Below are positions 5,194-35,706 of a stretch of DNA of 64,000 bases, in pieces (the stretch's first letter is position 1; the number at the start of each line of letters is the position of its first letter). The notes under the pieces are model-generated. The model was given only the letters and a program-made list of their open reading frames with translations, had not been told where the DNA came from and ran no database searches. The DNA comes from Bacillota bacterium. Its GTDB lineage: Bacteria > Bacillota > Limnochordia > DTU087 > JAAYGB01. A program made the translations under genes and the position numbers. The stretch spans positions 1 to 64,000 of the forward strand of contig JAAYGB010000066.1 of assembly GCA_012727955.1 (NCBI GenBank), written 5' to 3'.

Positions 5194-5284
5194 GATTCCC
5201 TGGGGTGGAAACAAATGGAGGGATCCCGCTGGACAAAGAGAACCTTTGGATCATTGCAGACGGGGTGGTCAAGGAGGGGTAGAT

Positions 5285-5626
5285 GTGGCGGTAGTAGAGA
5301 AGGAGACAGTTGGACGAGCCCTTGTGGTCAAGCTGTCCGGTGAACTGGATCTGGTAACCTCGGATTCAGTGAAGGAAGCGATCGATCCCGTACTTGAAGG
5401 TTCTTCCCGGATCACTGATCTGGTGATTGACCTAACCCAGGTGAGATTTATCGATAGTTCCGGTTTGGGGATGCTCTTGGGTAGATATAAGAAAGTGAGT
5501 GACCGGGGAGGAAAGGTGATTGTCTTTGGCCTACAGCCGGCAGTGGAGAGGGTCTTGGCCATGGCCGGTATCACCAAGATTGTAGAGGTTGCCGCATCGC
5601 GGGATGCTGCACTAGCCCACTACTAG
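5285..5626 (+). CDS. spoIIAA: Anti-sigma F factor antagonist SpoIIAA
   Basis: A 113-residue STAS-domain protein. The segment VVKLSGELDLVTSDSVKEA is the usual STAS start, and FIDSSGLGMLLGRYK contains the serine that SpoIIAB phosphorylates. Dephosphorylated SpoIIAA binds SpoIIAB and frees SigF in the forespore. The frame extends upstream to an ATG at 5246, but the GTG at 5285 is chosen. It is preceded by AAGGAGGGG at five bases and gives the normal SpoIIAA length. First gene of the spoIIAA-spoIIAB-sigF operon, behind a SigH-like promoter. Confidence 0.95.
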   Translation: MAVVEKETVGRALVVKLSGELDLVTSDSVKEAIDPVLEGSSRITDLVIDLTQVRFIDSSGLGMLLGRYKKVSDRGGKVIVFGLQPAVERVLAMAGITKIVEVAASRDAALAHY

Positions 5627-5641
5627 GGAGGTTACTAGAGC

Positions 5642-6094
5642 ATGGATGTAATGTTGGAACCCAATAACGTAAGAATGGAATTTCCCAGTAGACCGGAGAA
5701 TGTGGCCTTTGCCCGTACTGCTGTGGCCATGTTTGCCGCGCAGATGGATTTCACCTTAGATGAAATCGATGAGATTAAGATAGCAACCTCAGAAGCGGTC
5801 TCCAATGCGGTGATCCATGGTTACAAGGATCGGGTGGGTATCGTCAAGGTAACGGTAGCCCTTTATGACGATTACCTGGAAATTCGGGTGGAGGATGAAG
5901 GCGTCGGTATCGAAGACATTCAGCGGGCGATGGAGCCGGCCTTTACCACGGATCCAACTCAGCGTATGGGGTTGGGAATGGTGTTCATGAAGGAATATAT
6001 GGACAAACTAGATATCCGTTCGGAGGTCAACAAGGGCACCGAAGTTATCATGCAGAAATCGCCTAGCGCCGGCAACAGAGAAACGGCGGAATGA
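5642..6094 (+). CDS. spoIIAB: Anti-sigma F factor SpoIIAB (serine kinase)
   Basis: A 150-residue GHKL-type ATPase/kinase. The N box reads EAVSNAVIHGY, the G1 box VEDEGVGI and the G2 region MGLGMVFMKEYMDKL, in the right order and spacing. SpoIIAB holds SigF inactive and phosphorylates SpoIIAA. It starts 15 bases after spoIIAA behind AGGGAGGT and ends ten bases before sigF. Length and neighbours are as in other endospore formers. Confidence 0.95.
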   Translation: MDVMLEPNNVRMEFPSRPENVAFARTAVAMFAAQMDFTLDEIDEIKIATSEAVSNAVIHGYKDRVGIVKVTVALYDDYLEIRVEDEGVGIEDIQRAMEPAFTTDPTQRMGLGMVFMKEYMDKLDIRSEVNKGTEVIMQKSPSAGNRETAE

Positions 6095-6104
6095 GGGTAT
6101 TACT

Positions 6105-6866
6105 ATGGAATGGTCCTTATCCCATATAGAACTGCCGCCGTATAAACCGCTGAGTGATTGTGAAACCAAGGAGCTATTGCACCGGGCCCAGTCGGGAGAT
6201 GCCCAGGCCAAACAAGAGTTAGTTGAGGCCAACCTTCGCTTGGTGATGAGTGTTGTCCAACGCTTCGCGGGACGGGGTGAACCGGAGGATCTTTTCCAAA
6301 TCGGCTGTATTGGCTTGACTCGAGCAGTGGAGCGCTTTGATCTTGACTATGATGTCAGATTTTCCACCTATGCTGTGCCCATGATCATTGGCGAGATCCG
6401 GCGTCATCTCCGGGAGGATCAGACGATTCGGGTCAGCCGCTCCTTAAAGGAATTGGCCCATCGGGCGGCTCAAGTCAGCGCGACCCTAGAACAAGCCCTA
6501 GAACGAACTCCAACCCTGCGGGAACTGGCGGAAGCCCTGGAGGTATCGCCGGAGGATTTAGTGGCTTCCTTGGAGGCCCATCAGGAGCTGGCATCACTCC
6601 AAGCAGTAATTTATGAAGACGAGGGACAACCAGTCTTGCTCCAGGACCAAATCGGTGTGCCAGCCAACACTGATGCTGCCATTGAGAATATGGCCCTACG
6701 CCAAGTTTTTGAGAGTCTATCTGCCCAAGAGCAGAGTTTCATTAAGTTACGCTTCTTCGAAGAGAAAACCCAATCAGAGATCGCCTCCCTTTTGGGAGTG
6801 TCCCAAGCCCATGTATCCCGGATGGAGAAGAATATCCTGCTTACCTTAAGATCGAGACTAGATTGA
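6105..6866 (+). CDS. sigF: RNA polymerase sporulation sigma factor SigF
   Basis: A 253-residue sigma-70 family factor. Region 2 is seen as DLFQIGCIGLTRAVERFD followed by VRFSTYAVPMIIGEIRRHLR. Region 3 follows, and region 4 ends in SEIASLLGVSQAHVSRME, a helix-turn-helix. Last gene of the spoIIA operon, which identifies it as SigF, the first forespore-specific sigma factor, rather than the similar SigG or SigB. GAGGGT precedes the ATG. A bidirectional terminator follows. Confidence 0.95.
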   Translation: MEWSLSHIELPPYKPLSDCETKELLHRAQSGDAQAKQELVEANLRLVMSVVQRFAGRGEPEDLFQIGCIGLTRAVERFDLDYDVRFSTYAVPMIIGEIRRHLREDQTIRVSRSLKELAHRAAQVSATLEQALERTPTLRELAEALEVSPEDLVASLEAHQELASLQAVIYEDEGQPVLLQDQIGVPANTDAAIENMALRQVFESLSAQEQSFIKLRFFEEKTQSEIASLLGVSQAHVSRMEKNILLTLRSRLD

Positions 6867-6896
6867 CGGCAGGGATACCCACAGGGAAGACTAAAG

Positions 6897-6950
6897 CAAA
6901 AAAGGGACTGCCCTGTGTTATGCAACACCATAGGGACAGTCCCTTTTCGT
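6897..6950. terminator. Bidirectional terminator between sigF and the Gfo/Idh gene
   Basis: Arms 6900-6910 and 6937-6947 (AAAAGGGACTG / CAGTCCCTTTT) pair perfectly, with inner pairs CCCT/AGGG and GTGTT/AACAC. On the minus strand the stem runs into six or more T, on the plus strand into TTTT. The two flanking genes converge here, so it probably serves both. Confidence 0.88.
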
Positions 6951-6979
6951 GGCTTTATCTTACAGTGAAGTAATCACCC

Positions 6980-8014
6980 TCAGACCTTGGCGATTTGCTT
7001 GCTCTCCGTTGATTTGAGGCAAGCCAAGATAATCTTCAAGGCTTCATAGCCCTCTTCACCGGAAATCTCGGGAGCCTTCTCGTTGACGATGGAGTTAACG
7101 AAGGCCTCACTGACGCCACTGGTGACCTGTCTTTCGTTGGTAGCGATAGCACCTACGTTGTAGCACTCTTCGGTGCCGTCTCGGTAGGTAACGGTGACCT
7201 GGAAGTTGGGATCATAACCAATCTTCATCACACCGTTCTCACAGTAGAGAATCGTACCGTTATCTTCACCGCCTCGATAGGTCCAGCTGGCGATGAGGGT
7301 ACCGATGATGCCGCTTTCGGTACGCAGGATACAAGTAGCATTGTCATCGACGTTAATCAAGCTGCCGTCCTCATAGCGCTTGTCTAGGGTACCAACAAAG
7401 GCACCGACCTCAACGACCTCTTCACCCAGAAGCCAGCGGATCAAGTCGGCCTTGTGAACGCCCAGGTCACCCATGGCTCCGATGAAGGCCTTGTCCTTCT
7501 GGAAGAACCAAGTCTTGACGGACTTATCAACACACCATCCCTCGGGACCGGCGTGACCAAAGGTGGTCCGGAAGGTGAGCACCTTGCCGAGCTTACCGCT
7601 GTCAAGAATCTCCTTTGCCTTGACATGAGGAGGCATGAGGCGTTGGTTGTGACCGATCATCAAATACTTCCCGCTGTCCTTGGCAGCCTGGATCATCTCC
7701 TCGGCCTCTTCGGCGGAGGTAGCCATCGGTTTTTCGCACAATACGTGTTTGCCTGCCTTCAGGGCTGCAATGGTTACAGGAGCATGCAGGTAGTTGGGGA
7801 GGCAGACAACGATGGCGTCGATCTTCGGATCTGCCACCACGTCCTTCCAATCGGTATAGGCCTTCCCGCCGTAGAGCTCTACCATAGCATCGGCCCGCTC
7901 AGGCACGATGTCACAGAAAGCTAGAATCTCGGCCTGAGGATTGGCGGCCAGTTCCGGAGCATGGCGATGCCGACAGATAGATCCACAGCCGATGATACCA
8001 AACTTGACTGTCAC
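6980..8014 (-). CDS. Gfo/Idh/MocA family NAD(P)-dependent oxidoreductase
   Basis: A 344-residue two-domain dehydrogenase. FGIIGCGSICRHRHAPEL at the N-terminus is the dinucleotide-binding loop. GKHVLCEKPMATSAEEAE carries the EKP motif with the catalytic-site lysine. MGDLGVHKADLIRWLLG (residues about 183-199) is the conserved C-domain segment with the histidine. Members oxidise or epimerise sugars and inositols or reduce related substrates; the substrate is not clear here. The start is GTG with GGAGG at seven bases. It stands alone on the minus strand, convergent with sigF. Confidence 0.88.
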   Translation of the reverse strand: MTVKFGIIGCGSICRHRHAPELAANPQAEILAFCDIVPERADAMVELYGGKAYTDWKDVVADPKIDAIVVCLPNYLHAPVTIAALKAGKHVLCEKPMATSAEEAEEMIQAAKDSGKYLMIGHNQRLMPPHVKAKEILDSGKLGKVLTFRTTFGHAGPEGWCVDKSVKTWFFQKDKAFIGAMGDLGVHKADLIRWLLGEEVVEVGAFVGTLDKRYEDGSLINVDDNATCILRTESGIIGTLIASWTYRGGEDNGTILYCENGVMKIGYDPNFQVTVTYRDGTEECYNVGAIATNERQVTSGVSEAFVNSIVNEKAPEISGEEGYEALKIILACLKSTESKQIAKV

Positions 8015-8139
8015 TGCTATTCCTCCCTTATACGCATTATATTAAGAATTTGTGTTACGGGGTATATACTTCGTGTTTTGGTTGATACTTCCTGCCTAAA
8101 GCCGCAATGCTCGATCCTTGCCGTAAGGAGGACTTCTTG

Positions 8140-8967
8140 ATGAAAAAAAGGCTGGTTGACTTGCACGTACATTCCAATTATTCCGATGGTACATGGTCAG
8201 TGGAAGAAATGGTAGGTGCGGCCAAAGAGAAGGGACTGTCGGCCGTCGCTCTCACGGACCACGACACGGTAGAGGGTATCGATTTGGCAACGGCTGCTGG
8301 AAATTCTGTGGGGATTGACGTAATTCCCGGGGTGGAATTGAGTACGGAAGTGGGCGAGGCGGAGGTTCACATTCTGGGATACTTCGTCGATCACATGAAC
8401 GCCGAATTCAACGGGTTACTAAACAGGATGCGGCAGGGTCGCAGTCATCGGATGGTGGAAATGGTGAACCGGCTCAACTCTCTAGGCTACGAAATCACCT
8501 TGGAAGAAGTTGAGGCAAAGGCTGAATCCGGGACAATTGGCCGACCCCATCTTGCCCGGGTACTGGTGGACAAAGGCTATCTCTCGTCGGTGGAAGCGGC
8601 CTTTGACCGCTTGTTGGGTAGAGGCAAACCCGGATATGTACCAAGGACGAAACTGACACCACCCCAGGCCATTGCCGCCATCAAGGGGGCCCATGGAGTG
8701 GCTGTCTTAGCTCATCCCGGGCTCATTGAGGCCCAATTATCCATCTCCGATTTGGTGGATGCTGGGCTTGGGGGAATCGAGGTGTACTATCCGGCCCATG
8801 ACTGTAATGCTGTCAATCTATGGCTGCAGGTAGCTCAGCACTATCGGCTAATTGCTACCGGAGGCTCAGACTATCATGGTCCTGGAGCCAAGGCCCATGG
8901 GACACTGGGATATCCCGAAGTTAGGTATGAGGTGGTTGAACAATTGCAGGCTGCCATACATGGTTAG
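8140..8967 (+). CDS. PHP-domain phosphoesterase (TrpH/YciV-like)
   Basis: A 275-residue PHP protein. Metal-ligand motifs appear in order: DLHVHSNYSDG, ALTDHDTVEG, a glutamate in PGVELST, AVLAHPG near residue 198 and ATGGSDYHG near residue 245. Relatives remove phosphate from 3',5'-nucleoside bisphosphates or act as 5'-3' exonucleases on short RNA; which applies here is not known. The ATG at 8140 is chosen over the ATG at 8107 because TAAGGAGG stands eight bases before it and the conserved domain begins at once. Probably monocistronic. Confidence 0.88.
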   Translation: MKKRLVDLHVHSNYSDGTWSVEEMVGAAKEKGLSAVALTDHDTVEGIDLATAAGNSVGIDVIPGVELSTEVGEAEVHILGYFVDHMNAEFNGLLNRMRQGRSHRMVEMVNRLNSLGYEITLEEVEAKAESGTIGRPHLARVLVDKGYLSSVEAAFDRLLGRGKPGYVPRTKLTPPQAIAAIKGAHGVAVLAHPGLIEAQLSISDLVDAGLGGIEVYYPAHDCNAVNLWLQVAQHYRLIATGGSDYHGPGAKAHGTLGYPEVRYEVVEQLQAAIHG

Positions 8968-9088
8968 ATTTGCAGGCAGGTAAATGTCTGAAAAAAACGA
9001 AAACAAACAAAGGGCTAGTCCCTAGAGTCTTAGTACTAGATGCAGCAGCAATCTTCAAATCTAATCGAATAAGGAGTGGCAGTACACA

Positions 9089-9649
9089 ATGATTTTGAGT
9101 GGGGAAAGGGTGGTACTGCGGCCCGTTCAACCTGCGGATTTTCCCTATGTTGTGGAGTGGACCAAGAACGAGCAGGTAGGCCACTTCGCCGCCGACGACG
9201 GGTATCCTGAAAGTATCGCAGAATGTGAGCAGTGGTACAAGAAGTTACTGGCAAATCGCCACAATCAGGTGTTTATTATCCAGGCTGAAGATGGTCATCC
9301 CATTGGAGATGTAGAGTTTGATCAGATCACGTGGCGCAGCGGAGACGCCGAACTGCGGATCCGGATCGGTGATCCTCGCTATTGGAACCGGGGATATGGC
9401 ACTGAAACAGTCAGAGCCATGGTCAAATATGGGTTCGAGGAACTGAACTTGCAGCGGATTTATCTTAGGGTCTCCAAAAACAACCCCAGGGCCCTGCGCT
9501 GCTATGAAAAGGCCCATTTCCGCAAAGAGGGCAAGGTGATGCGCAGGGTAGGAAACTCTACCTCGGAGGAAGTAGTTTATTTGATGCGAATTCTCAAGGG
9601 CGAATATCTTCAGGCCCAAAACAAGGGCCATCTAGGACAAGTGAGCTAG
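9089..9649 (+). CDS. GNAT family N-acetyltransferase (RimJ/RimL-like)
   Basis: A 186-residue acetyltransferase. It opens with LSGERVVLRPVQPADFPYVV, the standard RimJ/RimL-type start. IRIGDPRYWNRGYGTETVRA contains the acetyl-CoA pyrophosphate loop, and LRVSKNNPRALRCYEKAHFR is the conserved C-terminal motif B region. Such enzymes acetylate ribosomal-protein N-termini, amino acids, polyamines or antibiotics; the acceptor is unknown. AAGGAG lies 12 bases before the ATG, a rather long spacing. A terminator follows the gene. Confidence 0.85.
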   Translation: MILSGERVVLRPVQPADFPYVVEWTKNEQVGHFAADDGYPESIAECEQWYKKLLANRHNQVFIIQAEDGHPIGDVEFDQITWRSGDAELRIRIGDPRYWNRGYGTETVRAMVKYGFEELNLQRIYLRVSKNNPRALRCYEKAHFRKEGKVMRRVGNSTSEEVVYLMRILKGEYLQAQNKGHLGQVS

Positions 9650-9658
9650 CTGGTCCGG

Positions 9659-9716
9659 TACCGGGATGCATCCTCACGGCGGCAAAGAGCCAAATGAGGA
9701 AACGTCCCGGTATTTT
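9659..9716 (+). terminator. Rho-independent terminator after the GNAT gene
   Basis: TACCGGGA (9659-9666) pairs with TCCCGGTA (9705-9712), and TCCTCA (9671-9676) with TGAGGA (9695-9700). ATTTTGTTT follows. It may also stop transcripts of the convergent SASP gene. Confidence 0.8.
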
Positions 9717-9729
9717 GTTTGCACTGAAG

Positions 9730-9990
9730 CTAATCCTTGGCACCTTCCTCGCGCTGAAGCTCAATTTCTGCCCGAGCCGCTTCAATGATTTTCCGCCGCA
9801 AGTTGGCTCCAACTGCGGTGTTCAGTTTCCCGCCTACCTGTCCACACTCTGCAGCGGTTAGGGAATCCCACCCCACCTGGGCAATCTTCTCCGCCAATCC
9901 CAGTTTTGCAGCCACTTGGTCCCGATACTTTTTCCAAGCAATCTCCTCTAGCTGTTTTTCTTCTATGAATTGCTCATGCTTGTCAACCAT
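9730..9990 (-). CDS. Alpha/beta-type small acid-soluble spore protein (SASP)
   Basis: An 86-residue protein. The core reads YRDQVAAKLGLAEKIAQVGW, then LTAAECGQVGGKL, then RRKIIEAAR. This matches the SASP pattern of a (K)YEVA-ELG helix, a GW..LT..E.G.VGG turn and a second DNA-binding helix. These proteins coat and protect forespore DNA and are degraded at germination. It is longer than typical 60-70-residue members because of an acidic N-terminal stretch (about 20 residues). GGGAGG precedes the ATG. Expression from a SigG promoter is expected, but I could not point to a convincing one. Confidence 0.82.
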   Translation of the reverse strand: MVDKHEQFIEEKQLEEIAWKKYRDQVAAKLGLAEKIAQVGWDSLTAAECGQVGGKLNTAVGANLRRKIIEAARAEIELQREEGAKD

Positions 9991-10203
9991 TTCAGGCCTC
10001 CCAATTCGCTACTAACATAATCCTGTAGAAATCCCTGTAATCCTATTTAGTGTTTGAAGGAGAGATGAAAGGCTATTCGAAAAAACACGACGATATTTGA
10101 AAGGGGGATCGGCAGGGCAGGACATAATTACCAGGTGTCGAAATACCAACTAGGTGTAACAGTTGCAGGCATTTGATATGGAATGATTTGGGAGGTATGT
10201 GCG

Positions 10204-10818
10204 GTGGTAGAGATTATCCTTAGGGGCGGCCCACTGATGATTCCGCTGCTTTTGTGCTCCGTTTTCGCAGTAGCGATATCCCTGGAGCGGCTGTGGTATC
10301 TGTGGCGCAGTCGTATTGACACGGAAGATTTGATGGATGATGTTAAGTTGGCATTACAGTCGGGCAAAGTACTGGAAGCTATGCAGATCGCCAAGAAAAG
10401 CCGCGGTCCAGTGGCTGCTGTAATCGCCGCGGGAATTGCTTATTATGATCGACCGGTTCCAGAGATTCGTCAACATATGGAAGAAGTGGGTAACCTTGAG
10501 GTGTACAAGCTGGAGCGACGCTTGCCGATTCTAGAGGTATTGGTGGGAGTAGCGCCCCTCTTGGGATTGCTGGGCACGGTAACTGGAATTATTCGGATTT
10601 TTAACGTAATGGCTGGCTTGCGTGGACTGGGCGATCCCGCAGCGATGAGTGGGGGAATTGCAGAGGCGCTGATCACTACAGCAGCGGGCTTGGCCATTGC
10701 CATACCCACCATGTTGATATACTCTTACTTCTCCGGTCTCATCGATAAGTTTGTCACCGACATGAACAAGCGCATCTCAGAGTTGCTAAATGTCCTTGAG
10801 TCAAGGGGTGAGTACTGA
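10204..10818 (+). CDS. exbB: ExbB/TolQ/MotA-type proton channel subunit
   Basis: A 204-residue membrane protein. One TM segment stands near the N-terminus (GGPLMIPLLLCSVFAVAISL), and two more follow around LPILEVLVGVAPLLGLLGTV and IAEALITTAAGLAIAIPTML, the ExbB layout. The GLLGTVTGIIRIF motif is diagnostic. With ExbD it forms the pmf-driven stator that powers TonB. The GTG at 10204 is chosen because GGGAGG lies ten bases upstream; an ATG at 10183 lacks a ribosome site. The stop overlaps the exbD start (TGATG). First gene of a five-gene envelope operon. Confidence 0.92.
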   Translation: MVEIILRGGPLMIPLLLCSVFAVAISLERLWYLWRSRIDTEDLMDDVKLALQSGKVLEAMQIAKKSRGPVAAVIAAGIAYYDRPVPEIRQHMEEVGNLEVYKLERRLPILEVLVGVAPLLGLLGTVTGIIRIFNVMAGLRGLGDPAAMSGGIAEALITTAAGLAIAIPTMLIYSYFSGLIDKFVTDMNKRISELLNVLESRGEY

Positions 10819-11225
10819 TGGCTATTAAGCGCCGTCCACGTAAGCGCTTTCAGCCGGACATTGTGCCACTGATCGACGTTATCTTTTTCCTGTTGGTCTT
10901 TTTTATTGTTTTTACAACTTTTCGGACTACGCCAACGGGATTGAATATTGAGTTGCCGCGGGCCGCTACGGCACAGAACCAGGCCCCGACAGAGTTGACC
11001 ATTAATGTCGCTGCCGATGGAACCTTCTATGTCTCCGGAGAACGGGTGACCGGTCAGCGAATTCAATCCCTTGTTAAACAGCGCTTGGAGAGAAATTCCG
11101 ATTTGTTTGTGATCATCAACGCCGATAAGCAAACACGCTATGACAACGTCATTACCGCTATGGACCACGTTCGGACCGCTGGTGCTTACCGGATTGGTCT
11201 TGCCGTTCAGCCTCGGGATGACTGA
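10818..11225 (+). CDS. exbD: ExbD/TolR biopolymer transport protein
   Basis: A 135-residue protein. It has a basic N-terminus (AIKRRPRKRF), then DIVPLIDVIFFLLVFFIVF: one TM helix with the conserved aspartate in PLIDVIF that takes part in proton transfer. The periplasmic domain follows, with the usual end VITAMDHVRTAGAYRIGLA. Translation is coupled to exbB by a one-base overlap. Works with ExbB to energise TonB. Confidence 0.93.
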   Translation: MAIKRRPRKRFQPDIVPLIDVIFFLLVFFIVFTTFRTTPTGLNIELPRAATAQNQAPTELTINVAADGTFYVSGERVTGQRIQSLVKQRLERNSDLFVIINADKQTRYDNVITAMDHVRTAGAYRIGLAVQPRDD

Positions 11226-11251
11226 CCTTTTTCTTTTAGGGGGTGAAGAGC

Positions 11252-12238
11252 ATGGATACCTTTAGCGCCAGTGAACGCCGATTTGGAATCTTTCTCATTC
11301 TTTCAGTGATACTTCACGGGGTGCTGCTCTATGTTTTCCCCGATCTGGCCGGTCAGCTGTCTTTGGGTTCCCCCTGGGGTGTCGAGGGTGGAGTAATTCA
11401 GGTTGTTCGGGTAGATGGGACATGGGAAGGAACTCGAGATGGGACTGGAGATAAAGCAACAGCAACCACTGTTGCCGAACCAAAGCCCACACCACCACAA
11501 CCCAAGCCCGAACCCCAGCCAGAGCCGAAGCCACAACCCAAGCCTGAACCGCAACCGCCACCACCCCCGAAGCCAAAGCCAGAACCCAAGCCTGCGCCCA
11601 AGCCGGAGCCGAAACCGGAGCCGGCGGCCAGCGTCATGGAGTCTTCGCCCAAGCCCCAGCCAGAACCAAGGCAGCCTGATCCGGTGCCACCGGAACCAGT
11701 GCAGAGTCAGCCTGGAGCTAGGGAGTCGGAGGGCAGTTCCAAGGTGATGACCAGTGAGCAGGGCCGAGAGGTAGTGACCTCCCAGGAGGGTACAGGTGGA
11801 GGTAACGGGACGATGGGAGAAGGGACTGGGGTGTCTGAAGCGGTCGAGGAACCAGAGATAGAGGATGTTGAGCCCGTTGAACCGGAAACGCCTCCGGCTC
11901 CGCCGCCGCCACCACCGCCACCGCCGTTACCTTCTGCCAATGGTATCTTCCCGCTATCTCGGCTTACCTATCCGAAGGACGCGCAGGATTCCGGTGCTGC
12001 CGGTGAATGGGTGGGACAGGTCCGGTTCTCCGCTGGAGGAGGTACCCCCCAAGTCTTGAACGTGATGCAAGCCACGGGCAACAGGTCCTTGGATGATTAC
12101 GCTGAACGAGTTATGCAGAGGGGCTTGCGTTACCCCACGGGCACCGTGGATTACGTCGCCAAGGTGACGGTAAGATTCAGCGGAGCGCCAGACTATGAGG
12201 TGGACATCATTGTTTCCGATATCGACTACGCCGAATAA
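11252..12238 (+). CDS. tonB: TonB-family energy transducer
   Basis: A 328-residue protein with TonB layout. An N-terminal TM anchor (FGIFLILSVILHGVLLYVF) is followed by a long Pro/Lys/Glu-rich spacer, a second acidic/proline stretch (EIEDVEPVEPETP then PPPPPPPPP), and a C-terminal TonB domain from about residue 235 (LTYPKDAQDSGAAGEWVGQV and RGLRYPTGTVDYVAKVTVRF). TonB domains contact outer-membrane receptors across the periplasm, so the gene argues for an outer membrane. AGGGGGTG stands before the ATG at 11252; a GTG three codons upstream overlaps that site. Lies directly after exbD. Confidence 0.88.
   Translation: MDTFSASERRFGIFLILSVILHGVLLYVFPDLAGQLSLGSPWGVEGGVIQVVRVDGTWEGTRDGTGDKATATTVAEPKPTPPQPKPEPQPEPKPQPKPEPQPPPPPKPKPEPKPAPKPEPKPEPAASVMESSPKPQPEPRQPDPVPPEPVQSQPGARESEGSSKVMTSEQGREVVTSQEGTGGGNGTMGEGTGVSEAVEEPEIEDVEPVEPETPPAPPPPPPPPPLPSANGIFPLSRLTYPKDAQDSGAAGEWVGQVRFSAGGGTPQVLNVMQATGNRSLDDYAERVMQRGLRYPTGTVDYVAKVTVRFSGAPDYEVDIIVSDIDYAE
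11477..11629 (+). repeat. Pro-Lys-Glu/Gln low-complexity spacer in tonB
   Basis: About 50 residues built of KPEP, QPEP and KPKP units, encoded by a quasi-repetitive DNA stretch. Such spacers are rigid and let TonB span the periplasm. The repeated codons make the stretch prone to length variation. Confidence 0.85.
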
Positions 12239-12290
12239 GTAGCTTGGTCGTTGTTCTTTGGAAAGATGACTTAAAAAGGGAGTGCCGGGA

Positions 12291-14306
12291 TTGAAAACAC
12301 TAAAGCGAACACTGCTGGGCCTAATGGCTCTGTGCCTTCTGATGTTGCCGGTTTCCGGTACCACTATGGCTGCAGGCGGGGATGACTTTATCTTAGCCAA
12401 CGAGTATATTGCCATCACCGTCAATGGTAGCGGCGAGAACACCGGCAGGTTTTCAGTAAATACCACCGGAGGAGATCCCTTGCGCCAAAATGATGACGAC
12501 AAGCCGCTGATCTACGGCCGGGCCAATCCTTGGACTTCCTACACCACTGTCCGGGTTGATCAACGGGACTACGTCTTTGGAGGCCCAACGAATAAAAGGG
12601 CGGGGCAAGGCGTTCCGACGGGAACCTGGATCTCGGGACCGGAATTGGTCGATGACTCAATCGTAACTACCTATGTCATCGCCGGTATCGAGGTCAGCCA
12701 GAGGCTTGGGTTTACCCGAAGCTTGACCACTGGCCTAATGGATACTGCTCGGATTGAATATGAGCTTGTCAACAAGGATGTGGTGGAACACAGCGTGGGC
12801 CTGCGAGTCGTCCTGGACACGATGCTCGGTGCCAACGACGGTGCACCCTTCCGGGTGAGGGAGCAGTCAATTCTGACAGACACGCGATTTGCCGGATCGG
12901 AAGTACCTCAATTCTGGCAAGCCTTTGATTCTGTGAGCAATCCTCAGGTGATGGCTCAGGGTACCCTGCGAGGCAGCGACTTAACAGCTCCCGACGAAAT
13001 CTACTTCACTAACTGGGGTAGTGTCGCCGATGCTCCTTGGCAGTTCCAATTCCAACCGGGCCGAGACTTCGTTCGCATAGGCGAGTTTGAGCTCGATAGT
13101 GCAATGGCCCTGTTTTGGAATCCCGTCACCCTTCAACCTGGGCAAGCTCTGCGCTATGCGACCAGCTATGGAATGGGTGGAATCACCATTGCTCCTGGTC
13201 GCTTGTCCCTCGGGGTGACGGCGCCGGCGCAGGTAGTGGCCGATCCCAGCTCTCCGGAAGAGTTTCCTATCATCGCTTACATAGAAAACTCCGGTGAAGG
13301 GGAGGCCCTAGATGTTACTGCTATCCTCCGACTGCCTGAAGGCTTTGAGGTTGTTAGCGGATCTACTTTGCGTAGACTGGGCAACATCGATACCGGATCG
13401 TCAGCTCAGGTTCGCTGGCAAGTCAGGGCCAGACAGCCACAGGTAGGCACTGCTCAAATCAGTGTTCAAGTCGAGGCCAAGAACAGCGAAACCAACCGAG
13501 TCTACCGTAACATCGAGATACTGGCACCGGCTAGGCTTGAGGTGACCGTAAGATCTGAGGAAGTTTCCATCAACGATCGCACTTGGGCACCGGGGGCCTT
13601 CGTAGTCGAGGCCAGATTGACCAATACCGGTGGGTCCGTCGCCCATCGTGTTACCGCCTCCTTCCAGGCTCCCTTGGGAATGGCCTTAGCCAAGGGTGAG
13701 TCAGAGTTGAAATTTGCCGGTGACATTGGCCCCGGTCAAACGCAAAGGCTTCGCTGGCGCTTAATACCCACGGGGGTAACCGGGGAAGCTATACCCTATT
13801 CCATTCGCACAACCTCCAGGGAGACGGGCTCCCGGGTTGTCAATGGCAGTGTCGCCATCCCTCCGGCTCGATCTGCTGTCTGGTGGCAGTGGACAGAGCA
13901 GGAGAACGCTCTTGAGGTGGGAGAGGTCCTAGTGGGACACTTGCGGGTGGTCAACCTAAAGGACTTTGCTGGGGGAGCGGGAATCCTACGCTTTGATCCC
14001 ACGAAACTGCAGGTAACCGGTGGACGGTTGGGGGTAGCCAAGGGTACCTTGATGCGCTTTGGTCCCGATGGACGCCGGCAAGACAGTGATTGGCAGCAGT
14101 TGCTGGTAGACAACCAGCGGGGAGAAATTCGCTTCAACGTCGAGCTGGAGAAAACCTATCCCGAAGCCAGTGGTGATTGGCTGGAAATTGGATTTCGGAC
14201 GGTAGGAACTGGCTCTAGCGCCCTTGAGATTCACGATCTCGTCCTGTCGGCTTCCGAGCAGGAGAGGATTTTGGTTCGGGGCAGAAATCCTTATCAAGTT
14301 GAGTAG
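12291..14306 (+). CDS. Exported multidomain protein with CARDB/DUF11-like repeats and a C-terminal cohesin-like domain
   Basis: A 671-residue protein of unknown function. It begins with a signal peptide (TLLGLMALCLLMLPVSGTTM then AA). Residues about 30-310 form a domain I do not recognise. Two beta-sandwich repeats follow (starts near IIAYIENSGEGEALDVTAIL and VVEARLTNTGGSVAHRVTAS), typical of CARDB/DUF11-type adhesion modules. The last 130 residues resemble a cohesin fold (LEVGEVLVGHLRVVNLKDFA and ILRFDPTKLQVTGG). TTG at 12291 is preferred over GTG at 12282 because the latter sits on the GGGAG ribosome site. Placed between tonB and the SLH-rod gene, it is probably a periplasmic or surface partner of that system. 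Confidence 0.65.
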   Translation: MKTLKRTLLGLMALCLLMLPVSGTTMAAGGDDFILANEYIAITVNGSGENTGRFSVNTTGGDPLRQNDDDKPLIYGRANPWTSYTTVRVDQRDYVFGGPTNKRAGQGVPTGTWISGPELVDDSIVTTYVIAGIEVSQRLGFTRSLTTGLMDTARIEYELVNKDVVEHSVGLRVVLDTMLGANDGAPFRVREQSILTDTRFAGSEVPQFWQAFDSVSNPQVMAQGTLRGSDLTAPDEIYFTNWGSVADAPWQFQFQPGRDFVRIGEFELDSAMALFWNPVTLQPGQALRYATSYGMGGITIAPGRLSLGVTAPAQVVADPSSPEEFPIIAYIENSGEGEALDVTAILRLPEGFEVVSGSTLRRLGNIDTGSSAQVRWQVRARQPQVGTAQISVQVEAKNSETNRVYRNIEILAPARLEVTVRSEEVSINDRTWAPGAFVVEARLTNTGGSVAHRVTASFQAPLGMALAKGESELKFAGDIGPGQTQRLRWRLIPTGVTGEAIPYSIRTTSRETGSRVVNGSVAIPPARSAVWWQWTEQENALEVGEVLVGHLRVVNLKDFAGGAGILRFDPTKLQVTGGRLGVAKGTLMRFGPDGRRQDSDWQQLLVDNQRGEIRFNVELEKTYPEASGDWLEIGFRTVGTGSSALEIHDLVLSASEQERILVRGRNPYQVE

Positions 14307-14328
14307 GTACGGCTTAGGGAGGTAGACT

Positions 14329-15648
14329 GTGGTGAAACTGACAAGCAATAGGTTTGTGGTTCCGGCGATATTGGTTGCTTTATTGGTTATGGCTTTGGCG
14401 GGCACGGTGTGGGCGGCGCCGAATATCAGCGACGTAGCCCCTAGCCATTGGGCCTATCAGGCCGTTGTCAAGTTGGTGGAGGAAGGTTACCTAGAACTTT
14501 CCACCGGTAACGCCTTTAATGGCGAGGATTATGTCGATCGGTACACCTTGGCCAGCGTAGTGGCTGAAGTTCTCCATGAGATGGAGAAGGGACGCCTGGA
14601 CATTTCCCAGGAGGACGTTGCATTACTGCGAAGGCTGACCACGGAATTTAGCAGTGAGTTGGTTTCCTTGTACGAGGAAAACGATGAGTTGTTTGCCCGG
14701 GTAGAGCAATTGGAGAAAACTTCTGAGGCTGTCAAACAACAGGTATATGACAGTGTCGACTTTTTGACACAGACCGATGCACAGCTGACGGAAGAAGTGG
14801 ATCTGCTGAAGCGGGAACTTCAGGCCAGTGAGGCCAATAGTTTGGCGGCCCTGAGCCAGGTGGATGGAAAGATCGAGGCCTTGTCTGCTTCCGTTTTTGA
14901 GATCTCCGGAGCCGTAGACAACCTGCAATCTTCCGTAGCAGAGCACAGCCGCATCCTGGATGCAAACTCCGCGGTGCTGGCAGAAGCCATCGAGGCAATT
15001 GTCGCTTTGGAAGAGATCTTAGACGTCAACGTTGAGAGCCGATTCCAGGAACGGGAGATGGCCCTGGCAATGGTCCGAGATGAGTTGGCTGCTGCCGACA
15101 GCGAGCTCCTACAGACTCTGCAGTCCCAGGGGGTCTCCTTACAGGAGCTAACCCAGCAGGTGCTGGCGCTGGAGGATGGTTTTGGTACTGTCATAGCTGA
15201 ACAGGAGACGGAAATCACTGAGCTTGAGGCACAGCTTCAGCAGGCCCAGGAGATGTTGGCGGCGTTGGAGCAACGGGATGAAGCTCAAGCTGAAACCATT
15301 GCTGCTTTGCAGAAGCAAATTACAGGGTATCAAGGGCGAATCGAGGAACTCAAGGCCGAGGTAGACCTGTTGCGGCAGCGGTTCATCGCGGTAGAGGATA
15401 CCGTCGTTAGAATCGGTAAAGTTGTCACTACCCTGGATGAGGAATTGGGGAAAGACCTGGATACCAATATTTCCATGGCTCTGCAGCGTTACCGAGTCTT
15501 GGAGCAGGATGTCAACAGCCTCCGCCAGGAGCTTAACGAGCAGAAGGCTAGAAGTCTTGAGGAAATTGAGCAGCTGAAGCGCACCAACAGCTTCCTCATG
15601 CTCGGCGGCGGGCTGGCCATTATTCTCCTCTTCGTGATGGGTTCATAG
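14329..15648 (+). CDS. SLH-domain, long coiled-coil, C-terminally anchored envelope protein (Omp-alpha-like)
   Basis: A 439-residue protein in four parts. Residues 1-30 are a signal peptide ending TVWAAP. Residues about 33-88 are one SLH domain (ISDVAPSHWAYQAVVKLVEE). Residues about 90-415 are almost uninterrupted heptad-type coiled coil rich in Glu, Leu, Gln and Ala. Residues about 420-438 are one hydrophobic helix (SFLMLGGGLAIILLFVMGS). SLH domains bind peptidoglycan-linked polymers. The layout SLH, rod, C-terminal anchor is that of Thermotoga Omp-alpha, which ties the outer membrane to the wall. That role here is inference. Last gene of the exbB operon, with a terminator behind it. Confidence 0.8.
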   Translation: MVKLTSNRFVVPAILVALLVMALAGTVWAAPNISDVAPSHWAYQAVVKLVEEGYLELSTGNAFNGEDYVDRYTLASVVAEVLHEMEKGRLDISQEDVALLRRLTTEFSSELVSLYEENDELFARVEQLEKTSEAVKQQVYDSVDFLTQTDAQLTEEVDLLKRELQASEANSLAALSQVDGKIEALSASVFEISGAVDNLQSSVAEHSRILDANSAVLAEAIEAIVALEEILDVNVESRFQEREMALAMVRDELAAADSELLQTLQSQGVSLQELTQQVLALEDGFGTVIAEQETEITELEAQLQQAQEMLAALEQRDEAQAETIAALQKQITGYQGRIEELKAEVDLLRQRFIAVEDTVVRIGKVVTTLDEELGKDLDTNISMALQRYRVLEQDVNSLRQELNEQKARSLEEIEQLKRTNSFLMLGGGLAIILLFVMGS

Positions 15649-15674: not shown

Positions 15675-15705
15675 AACGCTGGCTGGACCACAGCCGGCGT
15701 TTTTT
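15675..15705 (+). terminator. Terminator of the exbB-exbD-tonB-SLH operon
   Basis: AACGCTGGCT (15675-15684) pairs with AGCCGGCGTT (15692-15701), with one G-T pair, and runs into six T. Confidence 0.9.
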
Positions 15706-15762
15706 GTTTGCCGAAGATGGGAACAATTGGTTATGTCAAGGTAATTAGAAAGGGTGTGTCCG

Positions 15763-35061: not shown

Positions 35062-35706
35062 ATGGGTCGTGCTATGCCGGTGCAAAGCGTTGCAGAAGGT
35101 AATGATCAAACACACTACTTACAACTTACCGATGAGGAGGTGGTCCAGCGCGCTCAGAACGGTGACAGAGATGCAATGGACTTTCTACTCCATAAGTATC
35201 AGAAGTTAGTGTACATTTGGACTCGGCCCTACTTTCTGCAGGGAGCCGAGGACGATGATCTGCTGCAGGAAGGAATGATCGGCCTGTTCAAGGCTATTCG
35301 AGACTTCTCGCCCGGGGCCTCTTCCTTCTGGTCCTTTGCGAAACTATGCATTACCCGCAACATTATCAGTGCCATCAAGGGAACCACCAGACAGAAGCAC
35401 ATTCCACTAAACTCCTACACATCCTTGCACAAACCAATTTACGACAACGAAGGAGATCGAACTCTCATCGAGGTCATCAGCAGCAATAAGATGGATGATC
35501 CCGAATCAGTGGTCATCGATCGCGAGCGCATTGACTATACACAGAAACATATCGCTGAAGTGCTCAGTGACTTTGAATATCGGGTGTTTCGATTATACAT
35601 TAACGGATTGTCCTATCGTGAGATGGCCGAAGAGCTAAATACTCACACTAAATCCATCGACAACGCCCTTTGTCGGATCAAAAGTAAAATTTCTACCCAG
35701 TTCTAA
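35062..35706 (+). CDS. sigH: RNA polymerase sporulation sigma factor SigH (Spo0H)
   Basis: A 214-residue sigma factor. DDDLLQEGMIGLFKAIRDF is region 2.2 and SFWSFAKLCITRNIISAIKG region 2.4, with the FAKLCITRNII wording typical of SigH. Region 4 ends YREMAEELNTHTKSIDNALC. SigH drives early sporulation genes such as spoIIA, which carries a fitting promoter in this window. AAGGAG precedes the ATG at 12 bases. Confidence 0.94.
   Translation: MGRAMPVQSVAEGNDQTHYLQLTDEEVVQRAQNGDRDAMDFLLHKYQKLVYIWTRPYFLQGAEDDDLLQEGMIGLFKAIRDFSPGASSFWSFAKLCITRNIISAIKGTTRQKHIPLNSYTSLHKPIYDNEGDRTLIEVISSNKMDDPESVVIDRERIDYTQKHIAEVLSDFEYRVFRLYINGLSYREMAEELNTHTKSIDNALCRIKSKISTQF

Follow-up and report, generated by a model that had tools for sequence, protein, structure and literature searches.

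The window analysed here, a stretch of 64,000 nucleotides from a Bacillota bacterium of the class Limnochordia, contains five closely spaced genes that run in the same direction, with intergenic spacings of -1, 17, 43 and 22 nt. They encode the two subunits of an ExbB-ExbD-type motor, a TonB-like transducer, a secreted protein of 674 residues and, in last position, a protein of 439 residues in which an SLH domain is followed by a long coiled coil and a C-terminal hydrophobic helix, referred to below as the rod (Table 1). A terminator-like hairpin was detected just 3' of the operon, but such sites were no commoner in the region than expected by chance and only its position is suggestive. No Rfam match was found in the window. 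The operon is immediately preceded by a gene on the other strand for a small alpha/beta-type spore protein (SASP), the score of which fell just under the Pfam cut-off; this gene also occupies the same place in several relatives of the same order.

Table 1. Features of the operon and sporulation genes (positions in the window).
Feature	Position	Strand	Basis or remark
spoIIAA-spoIIAB-sigF	5246-6866
SASP gene	9730-9990	-	Score just under Pfam cut-off
Gene 1, ExbB/TolQ-family proton channel subunit, 211 aa	10183-10818	+	Pfam MotA_ExbB, 106.9 bits
Gene 2, ExbD/TolR-family subunit, 135 aa	10818-11225	+	Pfam ExbD, 109.9 bits; one-base overlap with gene 1
Gene 3, TonB-like force transducer, 331 aa	11243-12238	+	N-terminal membrane helix, proline-rich stretch, TonB_C
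Gene 4, secreted multi-domain beta-sandwich protein, 674 aa (TolB position)	12282-14306	+
Gene 5, rod (SLH, coiled coil, C-terminal hydrophobic helix), 439 aa (Pal position)	14329-15648	+	GTG start codon
Signal peptide, rod residues about 1-30	14329-14418	+	Hydrophobic stretch, then VWAAP-type cleavage region
SLH domain, rod residues about 33-86	14425-14586	+	Profile matches to SlpA/OmpM1 SLH; invariant residues
Coiled-coil rod, residues about 94-420	14608-15588	+	Proline-free, 3.55-residue periodicity, AlphaFold2 helices
C-terminal hydrophobic helix, rod residues 421-439	15589-15645	+	Composition; tail conserved in relatives
Terminator-like hairpin and T-run	15682-15706	+	Just 3' of the operon
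sigH	35062-35706

Among NCBIfam models, the first product scored better with TolQ than with ExbB (91.7 vs 53.2 bits) and the second better with TolR than with ExbD (76.2 vs 57 bits). An identity as TolQ and TolR drawn from these scores was dropped, because the exbB-exbD copy linked to a receptor elsewhere in the same genome prefers the TolQ and TolR models too. In the transducer, TonB_C was matched at 20.3 bits, below the cut-off, and the same domain exceeded the cut-off at the same place in most orthologues; no TolA match was found in the transducer with Pfam. TonB_C and TolA share a fold. The 674-aa protein carries a signal peptide, NEW3/CARDB-like domains and a cohesin-like C-terminus. Its AlphaFold2 model (pLDDT 83) was all-beta, with beta-sandwiches in series, and a fold search with this model placed only generic integrin/Ig-type arrays on top, with TM-scores near 0.2. 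Compared with its orthologues (34-46% identity, 62 invariant columns), it was the best-conserved part of the operon apart from the motor. A first-pass annotation of this DNA had placed the rod gene beside exbB-exbD-tonB; these genes do lie upstream, but the gene of the 674-aa protein, which stands between tonB and the rod gene, had gone unmentioned.

The same annotation had described the rod open reading frame as encoding a signal peptide, one SLH domain, about 325 residues of coiled coil and a single C-terminal hydrophobic helix, and each of these features was recovered. The Pfam SLH model scored 14.5 bits on the rod sequence alone, against a cut-off of 20.8. A profile built from 21 rod relatives matched Deinococcus radiodurans SlpA (E 2e-22) and Veillonella parvula OmpM1 (E 2e-17), with alignments covering the signal peptide, the SLH domain and the first turns of the stalk. 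Because the family profile matches both proteins, the single SLH copy is genuine despite its sub-threshold Pfam score, and the N-terminus of the rod is homologous to those of SlpA and OmpM1. Residues D35, V36, H40, W41, A42, Y43, G53, G65 and R71 of the SLH domain were invariant in the rod family. Proline was absent beyond residue 38, and the hydrophobic periodicity of 3.55 residues had a power of 6.96, compared with a maximum of 2.37 in 1000 shuffled sequences. AlphaFold2 (monomer, mean pLDDT 74) predicted three long helices at residues 94-230, 237-316 and 321-438. At 0.1485 nm per residue, about 332 residues would give a rod of about 49 nm, so that the label of a 45-nm class suits the protein of the window but not its family, in which lengths range from about 15 to 205 nm. 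Searching for similar folds with the rod model, a monomer of moderate confidence, yielded nothing informative, and profile matches to myosin and other coils in the PDB were set aside as compositional. Residues 421-439 were uncharged and hydrophobic, and this tail was kept in every complete relative of the same type that was examined.

The rod resembles OmpM/SlpA proteins (Veillonella OmpM1, Deinococcus SlpA) in having a homologous signal peptide, SLH domain and stalk start in the same orientation, but these proteins end in a beta-barrel, whereas the rod runs straight into a short hydrophobic helix. The rod is thus not an OmpM. As the first-pass annotation had pointed out, its layout equals that of Omp-alpha (OmpA1, TM0477-type) of the Thermotogales, which begins with a signal peptide and an N-terminal SLH domain and for which a coil roughly 316 aa (about 45-50 nm) long and about 20 hydrophobic C-terminal residues have been described (PMC3387000, PMC9388160). 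This likeness was drawn from the published layout, and no Thermotoga sequence was among the best 80 matches when genome contigs were scanned with the rod. In some Thermotoga species, Omp-alpha is paired with a gene for the Omp-beta barrel, whereas the neighbours of the rod gene are the gene of the 674-aa protein and zwf, and no adjacent Omp-beta barrel gene was found at this locus. Omp-alpha has already been published from Thermotogae, and OmpM from diderm Firmicutes.

Limnochordia have been reported to be diderm, with electron microscopy of cultured members showing an outer membrane (PMC11456536). The proposal that the rod is an outer-membrane tether in a diderm sporulating bacterium was examined against the host genome (2.27 Mb, 97% complete), where BamA, LPS genes and OmpM were all found. 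A single contig (C5) carries an outer-membrane cluster with BamA, TamB, LpxD, LptD_N, LpxC and LpxA, the last five of which exceeded their Pfam cut-offs, as well as genes resembling Skp, LptB/F/G, LpxB and LpxI as judged by position and size. The host OmpM is encoded on this contig separately from the rod; it is a protein of 586 aa with an SLH domain, a long stalk and a barrel-like end, and its locus has no adjacent motor genes. Since BamA, TamB, LpxACD, LptD_N and a true OmpM are present, and the window also carries the spoIIA operon that had been noticed in the first pass as well as sigH, the host is a diderm bearing sporulation genes. Two further proteins of the outer-membrane cluster on contig C5 have a degenerate SLH-like N-terminus, namely a 498-aa porin-like protein with F as its last residue (L038:735-2231) and a 270-aa protein without a Pfam match (L037:15276-16088).

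The relatives found for the rod fell into two clean types. The helix-ended (TM) type, to which the rod belongs, was found in Limnochordia, Halanaerobiales and some other Bacillota MAGs, and the barrel type, with F as the last residue, comprised the OmpM of Negativicutes and others. The rod family is conserved at both ends, with an SLH domain containing VDRYTLA and a tail with a hydrophobic C-terminus, while its middle varies from about 98 to 1378 residues. We examined about 51 TM-type rod loci from about 44 genomes of Limnochordia, Halanaerobiales and other MAGs. The gene of the 674-aa protein was directly upstream of the rod gene at all 51 loci, preceded by ExbD and ExbB wherever the contig extends that far; the TonB-like gene in between diverges fast and was missed by tblastn at some loci. 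The five-gene block was absent from the loci of beta-barrel OmpM.

Within the class, the rod and the 674-aa protein were each present in 59 of 61 relatives and missing from the same two genomes. These two (G025 and G054) carry BamA, and either the module is dispensable or it was missed in those assemblies. The 674-aa protein was also found in 36 of 38 genomes of the order Halanaerobiales, and its full-length gene in none of 81 Negativicutes. In a mixed set of 120 Bacillota genomes, a full-length gene was present in 27 of the 30 that carry BamA, the other three being Negativicutes, and in none of the 90 that lack it; BamA was likewise found in 17 of 18 additional carriers of the operon that were identified by way of their loci. 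As the distribution of this gene follows BamA except in Negativicutes, the operon tracks the outer membrane outside that group. Some BamA-negative Bacillota encode giant surface proteins (L233:2571-9308, L234:2162-8209, L235:2-3598) in which the N-terminal 300-400 residues or so resemble the start of the 674-aa protein, its first domain of about 390 residues. In one BamA-negative genome, this type of N-terminal domain was fused to three C-terminal SLH repeats in a protein of 2245 aa, and the recurrence of the domain next to SLH repeats hints at a cell-wall-related function of the 674-aa protein.

The length of the rod was then compared with that of the OmpM stalk, which spans the distance from the peptidoglycan to the outer membrane. 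With the end of the stalk set at a compositional change-point, rod and stalk lengths from the same genome were correlated with a rho of 0.88 (n = 26 genomes), and the means of 13 families, by which alone kinship was taken into account, gave a rho of 0.97 with a slope of 1.08 and an intercept of 30 aa. In a control, rod length and barrel length were not significantly correlated (rho 0.34, p 0.26, family means). The host values were 333 residues for the rod and 271 for the stalk, and the extremes reached 1317/1149 in G028, 725/653 in G014 and 160/93 in one Halanaerobiales genome. A first run, which included two wrong paralogues of the 498-aa porin type, had given a rho of 0.43; the values of 0.88-0.97 were obtained in a later run, for which a canonical SLH motif (GYPDG) was required and the OmpM of G014, G029, G026 and the G028 pair were added. 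Because its length tracks that of the OmpM stalk, the rod most likely spans the gap between the peptidoglycan and the outer membrane.

The order of the five genes recalls Tol-Pal, in which a channel, a regulator and a transducer are likewise followed by a secreted beta protein and a membrane-anchored protein that binds peptidoglycan, and both systems use a motor of the ExbB/TolQ and ExbD/TolR superfamily. The parts differ: the transducer belongs to the TonB_C family and not to TolA, a beta-sandwich/cohesin-like protein stands in the place of the TolB beta-propeller, and where Tol-Pal has Pal, an outer-membrane lipoprotein with an OmpA domain, there is an SLH coiled-coil protein that ends in a helix. 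By membership, the operon is therefore not Tol-Pal. Curated Tol-Pal systems have been reported only in Gracilicutes (PMC12204202), and atypical diderms were found to lack pal and tolB (PMC8871954). In agreement with the latter report, Pal was not found in the host, the sole protein with an OmpA domain (PF00691) being MotB, located beside MotA and FliL. PF00691 matches in 54 of the 61 genomes were not accepted as Pal, as those inspected were MotB in the host and several others. OmpA-domain proteins other than MotB were seen at L143 and L144 (G054) and L147 (G060). A replacement of the rod by Pal in G054 is suggestive at best, since G060 has OmpA-domain proteins yet keeps the operon.

We consider it fairly likely that the operon encodes a motor-coupled tether between peptidoglycan and outer membrane, similar to Tol-Pal in its working but with non-homologous parts in the places of TolB and Pal. 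The SLH head of the rod would bind the cell wall, its coiled coil would bridge the gap that is also bridged by the OmpM stalks, and a bundle of C-terminal helices would anchor the rods in the outer membrane. The ExbB-ExbD proton channel would move the TonB-like transducer, which would act on the rod via the secreted 674-aa protein, so that tethers may be loaded, released or dragged and the outer membrane would follow the wall as the cell grows, divides or carries out engulfment. Co-occurrence and operon order point to a shared process and not to a mechanism, and a physical coupling of the motor, the 674-aa protein and the rod is, in our judgement, somewhat more probable than not. The first-pass annotation had taken the motor genes merely as evidence of an outer membrane; its idea of a tether in a diderm is supported by the outer-membrane genes, the layout of the rod, the length scaling and the charges described below, and neither of the two outcomes that it had named as refuting was encountered.

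A simpler explanation is that the rod is a passive tether of the Omp-alpha kind and that exbB-exbD-tonB lie next to it through co-regulation of envelope genes, with no coupling to the motor. Neither the layout nor the length scaling requires a motor, and OmpM, the main tether, is located elsewhere with no motor beside it. However, Limnochordia and Halanaerobiales have the five genes in the same order and the relatives that carry the 674-aa protein are exactly those that carry the rod, a stronger association than ordinary clustering, and the motor would otherwise be left with no receptor in most carriers. A purely passive tether thus seems unlikely to us.

The motor might also serve in Ton-type import or export through an unrecognised outer-membrane channel, with the 674-aa protein binding the substrate and the rod holding the assembly on the wall. 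The third gene encodes a TonB_C protein and not TolA, the 674-aa protein has modules known from carbohydrate-related proteins (NEW3, cohesin-like), and the host does have one TonB-dependent receptor, all of which fit such a role. This BtuB-like receptor, the only one of the host, is however followed by its own, second exbB-exbD-tonB set (L141, G000:C47:62000-75000, positions 6199-10603). The operon shares its three motor genes with the ExbB-ExbD-TonB systems that serve receptors, but neither a TonB-dependent receptor gene nor a beta-barrel gene was found within it, and a receptor Plug domain was detected in 9 of the 61 relatives, leaving 52 without a receptor. Read from this survey, the operon motor is not an energiser of TonB-dependent receptors. 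Similarly, the authors who described the Halothermothrix orenii genome in 2009 pointed out that ExbB, ExbD and TonB occur together there although receptors are missing, and proposed a different function (PMC2626281), and a 2025 survey reported Ton systems among diderm Firmicutes only for Negativicutes (PMC12204202). The near-universal conservation of the operon whatever the lifestyle suggests a housekeeping role, and we regard transport as improbable. The more specific proposal of a Tol-Pal-like role rather than import is offered tentatively and falls somewhat short of an even chance.

Alternatively, the C-terminal helix could stop in the inner membrane, the rod then linking this membrane to the peptidoglycan. 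A cleaved signal peptide together with one C-terminal hydrophobic helix is the usual layout of exported proteins anchored in this way, and in many relatives the helix is hydrophobic enough for insertion by Sec (summed Hessa value about 0 or negative). Against this, the charges flanking the helix are reversed, with a mean of 3.0 K/R in the 15 residues before it and 0.34 after it among the rod relatives; these charges run against the positive-inside rule and thus disfavour a helix that crosses the inner membrane and ends in the cytoplasm. In addition, rod length tracks the stalk of OmpM, a protein that ends in the outer membrane, full-length genes of the 674-aa partner were confined to BamA-positive genomes, and Thermotoga proteins built in the same way have been located with the outer membrane or toga (PMC3387000). 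An inner-membrane anchor is accordingly as improbable, in our view, as the transport role, and the C-terminus of the rod probably sits in the outer membrane. Finally, SLH domains commonly anchor S-layer proteins and the coil lengths vary widely, but a surface filament of the S-layer type is highly improbable for a protein that carries a single SLH domain on a membrane-anchored coil, as OmpM/SlpA do, instead of the usual three repeats, and that is conserved with a trans-envelope motor in a diderm host.

How Gram-positive bacteria lost the outer membrane is a question to which diderm Bacillota are central, and as reports describe them as lacking both Pal and TolB, the attachment and constriction of their outer membrane need explaining. 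A near-universal operon combining a motor and a tether is a concrete candidate for this attachment that can be tested by knock-out, and it offers an answer to the remark made in 2009 about H. orenii. Since rod and OmpM stalk scale roughly 1:1, the gap between peptidoglycan and outer membrane could moreover be estimated from sequences. No description of the operon or of the length scaling was found in the open-access papers that were searched. More broadly, and with slightly less confidence than for a Tol-Pal-like role as such, the diderm Bacillota other than Negativicutes may have inherited an ancestral powered machine for tethering the outer membrane, equivalent to Tol-Pal in function and made of ExbB-ExbD-TonB, a cohesin-like beta-sandwich protein and an SLH coiled-coil rod with a length adjusted to periplasmic width.

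Some envelope rods were extraordinarily long (L188 in G028:C99, L209 in G028:C15, and L069). Among these loci, an OmpM stalk reached about 1149 residues and SLH-TM rods reached 1317-1378 residues, or about 200 nm if straight. It is difficult to see rods of this length acting as straight spacers, although the OmpM of G028 is equally stretched. In one family (f6; L224, G015:C1:2696000-2714500, positions 10548-15410, and also L191, L196 and L225), an SLH-coil-TM protein replaces the canonical OmpM in the outer-membrane cluster and adjoins further SLH genes, one of which has a barrel-like end. This arrangement corresponds to a split OmpM and recalls the Omp-alpha/Omp-beta pair of Thermotoga.
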